Assembly (NCBI RefSeq): GCF_024138125.1
Contig: NZ_CP099994.1
Span: 124,001-188,000 of the forward strand
DNA length: 64,000 nucleotides
Reading direction: 5' to 3'
DNA from: Halorussus salilacus
GTDB lineage: Archaea > Halobacteriota > Halobacteria > Halobacteriales > Haladaptataceae
Shown here: positions 1 to 2,084 of the stretch, one piece after another
Layout of the letters: each line of letters starts with the position of its first letter
Numbering within the stretch: the first letter of the stretch is position 1
Translations under genes and position numbers: made by a program
The notes under the pieces: generated by a model
What the model saw: the letters and a program-made list of their open reading frames with translations, nothing else
Database searches by the model: none
What the model was told of the DNA's origin: nothing

Positions 1-665
1 GAACCGAGAGCGTGTTCATGATAGCAGACCAGTGGCGGGGCGTCTTCCGTTCACTGCTCGGTCTGTTCGAGAACCACGGCGCGACGGTGTTCTATCCGCC
101 GGGGGCCCAGCAGTACGACGACTGGAAACCGTTACAGCTCGAACAGCTCGCGATGGCGGGGGTCTCGGTTCCGGACACCGTGTTCACCACCGACCCGGAC
201 CGCGTCCGCGAGTTCGTCGCGGAACACGGCGAGGTCGTCTACAAGCCGGTCGCCGACTCGACGCGACCGAATCGACTGTCCGAGAGCGACCTCGGGGACG
301 CGCCGCTCGACCGACTGTCGAACGCGCCCGTCCAGTTTCAGGAGTACGCCCCGGGCGACGACGTCCGGGCGTACTTCCTCGACGGCGAGGTCGTCGGCGC
401 GAGTCGCTACGAGATCGACGATTGGACGTACAAGTCGGTCGGTCGCGTCGACGACGCCGAACCGGTGGACCTCCGGGAGGAGGTTCGACGCGACGTCGAA
501 CGCGCCGCCCGCGTCTCTCCGATTCGGTTCGGGGCGGTCGACTTGCGTGTCACGGACGACGAACACGCCCTTCTGGAGGTCAATCCCGGTCCCCGATTCG
601 CGTTCCACGACCTCCACGGTGCCACGGACATCGCCGGTGTCCTCGCCGACGCGCTGGTCGAGTGA
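1..665 (+). CDS. ATP-grasp ligase, 5' end outside window
   Basis: The reading frame is open to the left edge, so the true start is outside; GTG at 12 and ATG at 18 are only the first starts inside. The visible part is an ATP-grasp fold of the RimK/graspetide-ligase kind: the lead-in AMAGVSVPDT, the ATP-binding lysine in VVYKPVA, the hinge QFQEYAPG, and the magnesium-binding LEVNPGPR close to the C-terminus. The family joins a carboxylate to an amine or hydroxyl using ATP. It runs towards a 32-codon peptide gene and an M50 protease gene on the other strand, so I infer peptide modification; a stand-alone amino-acid or cofactor ligase is the alternative. The N-terminal pre-ATP-grasp domain is missing only because of the window edge. 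Confidence 0.85.
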   Translation, partial: TESVFMIADQWRGVFRSLLGLFENHGATVFYPPGAQQYDDWKPLQLEQLAMAGVSVPDTVFTTDPDRVREFVAEHGEVVYKPVADSTRPNRLSESDLGDAPLDRLSNAPVQFQEYAPGDDVRAYFLDGEVVGASRYEIDDWTYKSVGRVDDAEPVDLREEVRRDVERAARVSPIRFGAVDLRVTDDEHALLEVNPGPRFAFHDLHGATDIAGVLADALVE

Positions 666-753
666 GACTCAGGGGTAGGCGGTCTCGCGTCTCGACTCGG
701 ACCGACGACGGTCTACGCGACCCCTCAGCTCACGATGGTTGCGTCGGCCGTCG

Positions 754-802
754 AAAAAATCGATTCTGGCGGCCGTCGGCGAGCGCTCGCGCTCGCCGAC
801 GG
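754..802 (-). terminator. Hairpin plus T-run after the small peptide gene
   Basis: Arms of 13 bases at 773-785 and 790-802 pair perfectly around a 4-base loop. Read on the minus strand, the hairpin begins 14 bases after the stop of the peptide gene and is followed by a run of six T (754-759). It also sits between two convergent genes. T-runs are known to stop archaeal RNA polymerase; the hairpin may only stabilise the end. Confidence 0.6.
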
Positions 803-815
803 TCGGACCAGTCGT

Positions 816-914
816 CTACTGCGAGTCCCAGGTGGGGTCGCTGGTGTACATGGTCTGTTCGCGGTCTTCGAGATCCTCTTCCTCGCCGAGGGCTTCGATG
901 AATGTTTCCATCAT
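816..914 (-). CDS. 32-residue peptide, candidate RiPP precursor
   Basis: A short gene that length cut-offs would miss: two ATG codons in a row (914-912 and 911-909), 32 codons, TAG stop at 816-818. The product begins MMETFIEALG, continues with a very acidic Glu/Asp-rich stretch, and ends TMYTSDPTWDSQ. The helical acidic first half looks like a leader; the tail holds Thr, Ser, Asp, Tyr and Trp, the residues graspetide and other modifying enzymes use. It has its own TATA-like promoter and a hairpin/T-run terminator, which argues for a real, separately expressed gene. It lies between an ATP-grasp ligase and an M50 protease with a PqqD-like N-terminus. The precursor role is inference; I recognise no family. 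Confidence 0.6.
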   Translation of the reverse strand: MMETFIEALGEEEDLEDREQTMYTSDPTWDSQ

Positions 915-939
915 GCTACATTGTGTAATGGTAACCGGT

Positions 940-966
940 GTCAATTAAATCTTTTCTAGTTATATC
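940..966 (-). promoter_or_regulatory. Promoter of the small peptide gene
   Basis: The minus strand upstream of the peptide start is AT-rich in a GC-rich genome. Two TATA-like boxes are present: GATATAACTAG at 966-956 and ATTTAATTG at 949-941. The first would give a leader of about 20 bases, the second an almost leaderless message. Which one is used cannot be decided from sequence. Confidence 0.5.
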
Positions 967-1034
967 TAACAATTAAGAGCCTCCGCTACGAAAGTGAGAC
1001 GAGCTGTGGTGGCGACCGGCTCGCTCCCGGCCGT

Positions 1035-2084
1035 TCAGCGACCGGACGCCGACCGGACCGTTCGGAAGCGCTCGACGATACCGAAGTACGATTCGGCGTA
1101 GATGACGACGAGCACACAGAGGACGGCGAGTGACCCCGCGACGTCACCGACGAGATATCCGACCGCCAGATTCACCGCGAATCCGACGATAGCGAACCCG
1201 TAGGAGACGGCGGCGTACGCCGCTTGCCACGTCGGGCGGCGCTCCTTGAGGTCCGTTATCCCGCGCGTTCGAACGTTGCGTTCGTCCAGCAAGTCGGTCA
1301 TCAGCAGATAGCCGTCGCCGTGGATGAGCGGATTGAGGGCGGCGACTTGGAGATTGAAACAGAGGAGCCCCGCCACTGCGACGCCCGGATGCGGCCAGAG
1401 CGTGTAGTAGAGCGCGAACATCCCCAGCGTCCAGAGGAGGCCGTAGGCCGGTCCGGCGAGGGTGTTCCACATCCGGCGGTTCCGCGGGAGGACCCAGCCG
1501 CCGTGGGTCCGCGTGACGACCGCGGGAATCACGCCGTTGAGAATGGACACGCCGAACGACGGGTCCAGTCCCTGTTTCCGAGCGGTGTGGTAGTGTCCGA
1601 GTTCGTGGACGACGACCGAGCAAATCACCATCGGGATGAGAACCGGGGCCGAGTCGAGGAGGTAGCGAATCGGGTGGTCGAGGAACGGCCCGGCGAGCCT
1701 CGACGCCGTCGCGACCCACAGCGCTCCGGTGAGACACAGAAGCAGTCCGACCCCGAGCGCGCGGTGCCACAGTCGGATGTCCTCGGGCGGTCGGACTCGC
1801 TCGACCGGCGCGCCGTCCCTGACGAAGTCCTTCTCGTCCATCTCCCGGAGGACGGCCGCCGCTCCGGAGTCGTGTCGCTCCGTCTCGGCGATGAGTTCGT
1901 CGATGGACAGCTCCGTCGACTTCTCTCTCATGGTCTCGACCACCACCTCGGGGACCTGCTTGAACCGGTCGTCGGGCGACCGAATCCGGTACTTCCCGTC
2001 GGCGAAGACCCAGGTGAACCCGTATCGGGTGTCGGTTTCTTCCACCTCCGTTTCGAGGGTCGTTCGTTCCAATAGTGAGAACAT
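1035..2084 (-). CDS. M50-family membrane zinc protease with PqqD-like N-terminus
   Basis: A 349-residue polytopic membrane protein. The zinc site is HELGH at residues 160-164 with a second motif NPLIHGDG at 251-258 (Asp257 as third ligand), the arrangement of site-2 (M50) intramembrane proteases. About 5-6 hydrophobic segments lie between residues 108 and 335. Residues 20-95 are soluble and read like a PqqD/RRE winged helix (YGFTWVFADGKYRIRS, then a Val/Glu-rich helix), the peptide-recognition module of RiPP systems. M50 proteins with this layout occur in bacteriocin and peptide-export clusters, where they cleave or export the peptide. It lies just upstream of the 32-codon peptide gene on the same strand. 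Start at ATG 2084; a TATA-like GATATTAAG lies about 40 bases upstream. Confidence 0.85.
   Translation of the reverse strand: MFSLLERTTLETEVEETDTRYGFTWVFADGKYRIRSPDDRFKQVPEVVVETMREKSTELSIDELIAETERHDSGAAAVLREMDEKDFVRDGAPVERVRPPEDIRLWHRALGVGLLLCLTGALWVATASRLAGPFLDHPIRYLLDSAPVLIPMVICSVVVHELGHYHTARKQGLDPSFGVSILNGVIPAVVTRTHGGWVLPRNRRMWNTLAGPAYGLLWTLGMFALYYTLWPHPGVAVAGLLCFNLQVAALNPLIHGDGYLLMTDLLDERNVRTRGITDLKERRPTWQAAYAAVSYGFAIVGFAVNLAVGYLVGDVAGSLAVLCVLVVIYAESYFGIVERFRTVRSASGR

Follow-up and report, generated by a model that had tools for sequence, protein, structure and literature searches.

Does the 32-codon open reading frame (ORF) that lies between an ATP-grasp ligase gene and an M50 protease gene in Halorussus salilacus encode the precursor of an enzymatically modified peptide, and if so, what kind of product would it yield? 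The frame is located in a 64,000-nucleotide stretch of DNA (positions 124,001 to 188,000 of contig NZ_CP099994.1), herein called the window. An earlier note, made without database searches, had read peptide, ligase and protease as a graspetide-like pathway. Our analysis supports that reading, with the linkage in the product inferred and no product data available.

The 32-codon gene is a conserved precursor gene

The gene occupies positions 816-914 on the minus strand, where an ORF encoding the 32-amino-acid peptide MMETFIEALGEEEDLEDREQTMYTSDPTWDSQ is found exactly, and is supported by profile search and by conservation across loci. It sits between the gene for ligase B, whose C-terminal 220 residues are encoded at positions 1-665 on the plus strand, and the M50 protease gene (1035-2084, minus strand, 349 amino acids), as the earlier note had claimed. 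In the whole genome (G000; 3.6 Mb in four contigs), the gene order is an EthD-domain gene, ligase A, ligase B, the peptide gene and the M50 gene, the last two on the minus strand. The sequence upstream of the window, which that note had wished to see, thus contains the remainder of ligase B and two further genes. The complete ligase B gene (308 amino acids; G000:C2:123739-124665) starts 262 nt before the window, and the gene for ligase A (318 amino acids; G000:C2:122687-123643, equivalent to L005:8687-9643) lies just upstream of the window. The adjoining gene encodes a tandem EthD-domain protein (L005:7801-8517) that is 92% identical in H. ruber, where it also adjoins ligase A. It was rejected as a part of the cassette, since it was not found in the 18 kb H. 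halobius locus or at the other loci.

The peptide gene was also claimed to have its own TATA-like promoter and a hairpin/T-run terminator, and both held in the sequence. A TTTAAT box lies at positions 944-949 on the minus strand, approximately 35 nt upstream of the ATG, and recurs at about the same distance from the ATG in the loci nearest to the window, those of H. ruber YC25 and H. halobius HD8-83. A terminator-like element (754-805, minus strand) follows the stop codon. A repeat search identified in it a 17-bp inverted repeat (770-786/789-805) with a 2-nt loop, which is followed by a run of six T (759-754); this hairpin was missed by the terminator rule of a sigma-type promoter scan, which was not designed for archaea. 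An A/T-rich box ahead of the gene and a run of T behind its stop codon are features of many precursor genes in the family. The peptide DNA has another match in the genome (C1:2373955), which falls inside an apparent malate:quinone oxidoreductase gene and was dismissed as chance.

Homologues of the M50 protease were found in 17 of the 392 haloarchaeal genomes sampled, at 19 places. All 17 genomes carry a ligase of the window's family (hypergeometric P of co-occurrence, 2.5e-26), and each protease gene has a ligase gene adjoining or very close to it. The earlier note had proposed searching for short ORFs beside homologues of the protease. A precursor was present at every locus with an intact ligase/protease pair (21/21) and at three loci with a ligase only, giving 24 precursors in total; at least 19 haloarchaea besides this one share the cassette of peptide, ligase and membrane protease.

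A precursor profile made from 18 seed peptides was searched against the 9,039 ORFs of all loci. It detected precursors down to an E-value of 0.007, while the next match had an E-value of 1.2. One precursor (L028) lies within a longer frame, outside the ORF set, and was recovered by short-query BLAST. Across 18 Halorussus genomes, all strong precursor matches (13/13, E<1e-7) adjoin a ligase of this family, the next match having an E-value of 0.02. A leave-out profile was built from 17 other precursors, excluding the window peptide and its two nearest relatives; it placed the window peptide at the top of its own 3.6 Mb genome (E = 6.7e-5). The 816-914 gene is a real, conserved precursor gene and not a chance ORF. 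The family is real because it recurs across other haloarchaea, its recognition half staying constant while its product half changes fast.

Not every locus carries the full cassette. Ligase and precursor occur without the protease at three loci, and one of the three genomes concerned (G012) has no such protease anywhere. One of these loci, L084, is apparently the L035 locus minus its protease, with which it shares neighbors. In two Halorussus genomes (L082 and L083), ligase and precursor lie, with no protease at the locus, beside A-type ATP synthase genes, which by sequence resemblance only we take to be atpB-like and atpD-like genes flanking them on either side. At a further locus, L085, the ligase is found beside an M50 gene that lacks the catalytic core, and no precursor was detected; judged by its sequence, this is probably a decayed or decaying cassette. 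The Halocatena copy is carried on a 365-kb plasmid; in the one RefSeq record examined, its protease is annotated as hypothetical and its precursor is unannotated. A search for bacterial ligase homologues on plasmids found none, and only Halocatena salina matched.

Comparison of the neighbors across loci revealed no conserved dedicated exporter, toxin-immunity gene, receptor, regulator or extra modifying enzyme. Other neighbors were rejected as cassette parts: they recur among close relatives only, consistent with shared synteny. No NCBIfam model exists for the precursors, nor does any PDB chain match them.

The precursors are 28-49 amino acids long, each with a single core and a variable tail of 9-29 residues. 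An HFIExL...ER(N/S) motif marks the N-terminus throughout, in degenerate form at the three ligase-only loci and as the variant TFIEAL in the window, H. ruber and H. halobius. In the window precursor, the leader region MMETFIEALGEEEDLEDREQ (855-914, minus strand) carries the FIExL...ER motif common to the family, and the proposed core TMYTSDPTWDSQ corresponds to positions 819-854 on the same strand, its exact cleavage site being inferred. T21, T24, S25, P27 and D30 are invariant in this trio. Pairwise comparison within the trio gave 3 nonsynonymous differences in leader codons 2-20 for each pair, against 6, 6 and 2 in core codons 21-31. We read this as selection on the peptide, with a largely preserved leader and a drifting core. 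The clearest evidence of a functional core comes from L035 and L084. In their last eight codons (TPITWFGG), five are identical, three differ synonymously and none differs nonsynonymously, while the codons just before are almost all replaced. TPITWFGG is under purifying selection. Selection on the peptide, the absence of which the earlier note would have counted as a refutation, is thus visible in the leader of the trio and in the core of L035/L084. The other refuting condition named there, a lack of the short ORF next to protease homologues, did not hold at any intact pair.

With donor and acceptor residues defined as for graspetides (PMC13097080), a Ser, Thr or Lys donor precedes an Asp or Glu acceptor in 19 of the 24 cores, that of the window included. 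The remaining five have no Ser/Thr/Lys followed by Asp/Glu; thus, a side-chain ester inside the core cannot hold for the whole family. TPITWFGG has neither an acidic nor a Lys side chain, and its C-terminus is its sole conserved carboxylate. For the five cores that lack such an acceptor, acids of the less conserved linker may be used, the C-terminal carboxylate may be the electrophile, or the ligase may act in another way. Many Halorussus cores have a Thr or Ser about eight residues from the end. A C-terminal Cys-x3-Cys or Cys-x4-Cys recurs in L030, L033, L083 and the Natrialbaceae loci (CIAYC, CPLSC, CDGAC, CPEKC, CFETGC); such Cys pairs could reflect a disulfide, a thioester or a metal site.

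Ligases and membrane protease

A profile of 22 ligases was compared with the PDB, and the top match was PsnB (7drm, E = 1.8e-72), followed by 9bou (PruB), 5ig8 and 5ig9 (MdnB, MdnC), 7mgv (CdnC) and 7m4s (AMdnB), with RimK entries later. For the H. ruber orthologue, a confident structural model (pLDDT 86) gave the same picture in Foldseek: its first 15 matches were all PsnB chains, with E-values down to 5e-25 and a TM-score of approximately 0.8. PsnB and microviridin ligases are ahead of RimK by a wide margin in both sequence and fold, although RimK and LysX/ArgX share the fold. Identity to PsnB is 28-37%. The best NCBIfam models are GRASP_SAV_5884, MvdD and MvdC, with scores far below the curated cut-offs. 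The earlier note had called the ligase one of the graspetide/RimK type; of these, profile and fold very strongly favor a PsnB-type graspetide synthetase over a RimK-type ligase.

The E-x-N metal residues of the ATP-grasp fold are invariant across the ligases and the DxR motif is kept in nearly all, three relatives having NYR there. Ligase B of this genome has the ATP-binding Lys (KPV), GDDVR and EVN, and lacks the Gly-rich loop. In ligase A, the ATP-binding Lys that the other ligases conserve is replaced by Gln (AVVQPVNGG), and its counterparts in H. ruber and H. halobius show the same change. Because of this replacement, ligase A may be either a partner of ligase B or a degenerate copy; together with the missing loop in ligase B, it may hint at a division of labor. 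The two-ligase state is confined to the three close Halorussus species.

The ligase tree comprises two haloarchaeal clades. One, from Natrialbaceae, Halocatena and relatives, stands beside PsnB and is associated with TTxxxxE[EC] cores, which occur with no other clade; the second includes the window and has diversified cores. PsnB itself is on a long branch beside the clade without the window, and its exact placement is unsure. Core types track this tree: S[CT]xxx[DE]xx is found with the ligases of L029, L031 and L034, and TPITWFGG with those of L035 and L084.

The protease homologues share an invariant M50 HExxH motif, which in the window protease is HELGH (residues 160-164; 1593-1607, minus strand), and an invariant GDG motif in the second half. 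All 18 proteases match the NCBIfam daptide_HExxH model (best E = 2.8e-20) and 17 of 18 match LiaK/YydH, all below the curated cut-offs; for the daptide model NF041824, the score is 44.9 bits against a cut-off of 300. The protease is related to the daptide metalloproteases and is not a member of them. The sole plausible match in the structure search was SpoIVFB.

The N-terminus of the protease had been described as PqqD-like, and this part of the earlier reading remains suggestive only. The N-terminal 85 residues are predicted to form four strands and three helices, a topology compatible with PqqD, and the soluble domain that they represent (residues 12-97; 1794-2051, minus strand) is a candidate divergent PqqD/RRE domain. 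Neither Pfam (PF05402) nor a PDB profile matched it, and hhalign against haloarchaeal PqqD gave a probability of 7.6. Support is indirect. In four archaeal genomes that are not haloarchaeal, distant M50 homologues match PqqD in Pfam at the N-terminus, two of them above the cut-off, and the haloarchaeal domain is collinear with the set that contains these homologues (hhalign pairwise E = 2e-4, with a probability of only 45%). A divergent PqqD/RRE domain is plausible and has not been shown. The loci of distant, PqqD-bearing M50 proteases from outside the haloarchaea (L136-L139) may represent separate RiPP systems; in L138, and apparently in L137 too, the M50 gene adjoins one for a B12-binding radical SAM protein.

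A proposed pathway and its alternatives

Because 24 precursors with a conserved leader and a variable core lie beside a ligase, the peptide is best seen as a RiPP precursor with its modifying enzyme. The cassette is likely to direct RiPP biosynthesis of the graspetide type, although the chemistry is inferred and neither product nor mass nor enzymology data exist. The process would begin with a precursor made from its own promoter, whose FIExL...ER leader would dock on the ligase. The ligase would then use ATP to phosphorylate an acidic core residue, for which D30 is the best candidate in the window. A conserved Thr or Ser (T21, T24 or S25) would attack the activated acid, forming one or two ester rings with a loss of 18 or 36 Da. 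For the free core TMYTSDPTWDSQ, the calculated [M+H]+ is 1431.573 when linear, and would be 1413.563 with one ring and 1395.552 with two. The corresponding inferred cores are TQHTSGPSDDK in H. ruber YC25 (1172.518 linear, 1154.507 with one ring) and TQHTSAPHDDK in H. halobius HD8-83 (1236.560 and 1218.550); for TPITWFGG, present in H. amylolyticus YC93, the values are 878.441 and 860.430. Linking T21, T24 or S25 to D30 places the nucleophile before the acid, as reported for known graspetides (PMC7823629). The M50 protease would cut the leader off at the membrane, near an inferred Q20/T21 boundary, with its N-terminal domain perhaps holding the leader, and an exporter of undetermined identity would release the product. 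Under this best explanation, and in the absence of product data, the product would probably be a protease inhibitor, an antagonist or a signal peptide; the graspetides characterized up to 2022 are protease inhibitors (PMC8939145).

Can the same observations be explained otherwise? That the short ORF arose by chance, or encodes a small protein unrelated to two unconnected enzymes, is all but excluded. Thirty-two codons alone are weak evidence in a GC-rich genome, where many such ORFs exist, but this one has been kept at 24 loci that span several haloarchaeal families, lies beside every intact pair and is the top match genome-wide for the leave-out profile. It is also very unlikely that the ligase merely extends the peptide by an amino acid or an amine in the manner of RimK, without cyclization. 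The fold common to RimK and LysX/ArgX and the existence of acid-free cores would allow it; the distance by which PsnB and microviridin ligases outrank RimK and the retained DxR motif speak against it. The graspetide reading itself faces the three protease-less loci, ligase scores far below the NCBIfam cut-offs and the Gln of ligase A.

A more serious challenge concerns the linkage. Throughout the family or in some of its members, the ligase might activate the C-terminal alpha-carboxylate, so that a lactone or thiolactone ring closes at the tail on a conserved Thr, Ser or Cys, similar to autoinducing peptides. Arguments in its favor are the five cores in which no donor is followed by an acidic side chain, the purifying selection on TPITWFGG despite its scrambled linker, with the C-terminus as its sole conserved carboxylate, and the many Halorussus cores with a Thr or Ser about eight residues before the end. 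Against it, graspetide synthetases are described as joining side chains (PMC13097080), the nucleophile precedes the acid in most cores, the window's among them, and the PsnB-side clade keeps its Thr-Thr/Glu pattern. We consider this alternative unlikely, and equally so its bolder form, in which at least L030, L032, L033, L035 and L084 are cyclized through the C-terminal carboxylate onto Thr, Ser or Cys. If it were true, the products of these five loci would be small archaeal autoinducer-like tail-lactone or thiolactone peptides, and the linkage would be of a type not described for graspetide synthetases. A pheromone role, in which the M50 protease makes and releases a signal peptide stabilized by the ligase modification, is possible; it concerns function and is compatible with the graspetide cassette. 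Short cores (9-29 amino acids), an intramembrane protease, a core type that varies between genomes and the lack of conserved toxin-immunity and exporter genes are in its favor, but no receptor or regulator is conserved at the loci.

Relation to known systems

The graspetide reading finds its closest parallel in plesiocin, whose ligase PsnB is nearest to the haloarchaeal ligases in sequence and fold and forms two lactones in each core repeat (PMC9484694). Plesiocin-like TTxxxxEE cores (TTLAVGEE, TTMAMGEE, TTMALGEE) occur in one haloarchaeal clade, the exact motif appearing once in each of L040, L041, L043 and L080, and are absent from the window and its clade. TTxxxxEE is the repeat of plesiocin, and FIEDL in the plesiocin leader resembles the FIExL of these precursors; both parallels, if borne out, would strengthen the link. 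Plesiocin has repeats, whereas the haloarchaeal precursors have a single core, and the present genome differs from the plesiocin pathway in having two ligases. NHLM-type transporters are reported to accompany graspetide group 2 (PMC13097080), while the haloarchaeal cassette has a dedicated M50 membrane protease instead.

The microviridin macrocyclases MdnB and MdnC are also ATP-grasp enzymes, with two paralogous ligases per locus, like this genome. They are more distant from the haloarchaeal ligases than PsnB, and microviridin leaders carry PFFARFL (PMC8939145) where the haloarchaeal ones carry FIExL. A membrane protease of the M50 type dedicated to a short RiPP precursor is known from daptide and epipeptide systems (YydH/LiaK), which provide the best NCBIfam matches, far below the equivalog cut-offs.

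Haloarchaea, including Halorussus, are known to encode lanthipeptides, the archalans and their relatives (PMC10105419, PMC12144867), but these rely on LanM chemistry and not on ATP-grasp enzymes. The text of PMC12144867 names YcaO, radical-SAM, lanthipeptide and lasso classes in archaea and does not mention graspetides. In a 2026 RODEO survey (PMC13097080), several graspetide groups have neighboring proteases, and the predicted group 36, found in Thermoprotea only, is apparently archaeal; it co-occurs with a putative chromosome-segregation protein and not with an M50 protease. Archaeal graspetides as such are therefore possibly not new. Haloarchaea are unmentioned in the main text of that survey, whose supplementary group lists were not covered, and no paper on a haloarchaeal ATP-grasp RiPP was found in the literature searched. 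The remark in the earlier note that it knew of no described haloarchaeal system of this make-up thus held within that literature. The cassette probably represents a family of ribosomally synthesized ring peptides that has apparently not been described before, with the ring chemistry inferred.

The acid-free cores raise the direct question of which groups this ligase family can join. Native leader proteases of graspetides are largely unknown (PMC8939145, PMC12291112), and the M50 protease is a candidate for a dedicated one. On the reading that we favor, haloarchaea would also make ring peptides with ATP-grasp enzymes, using a minimal cassette of three genes.
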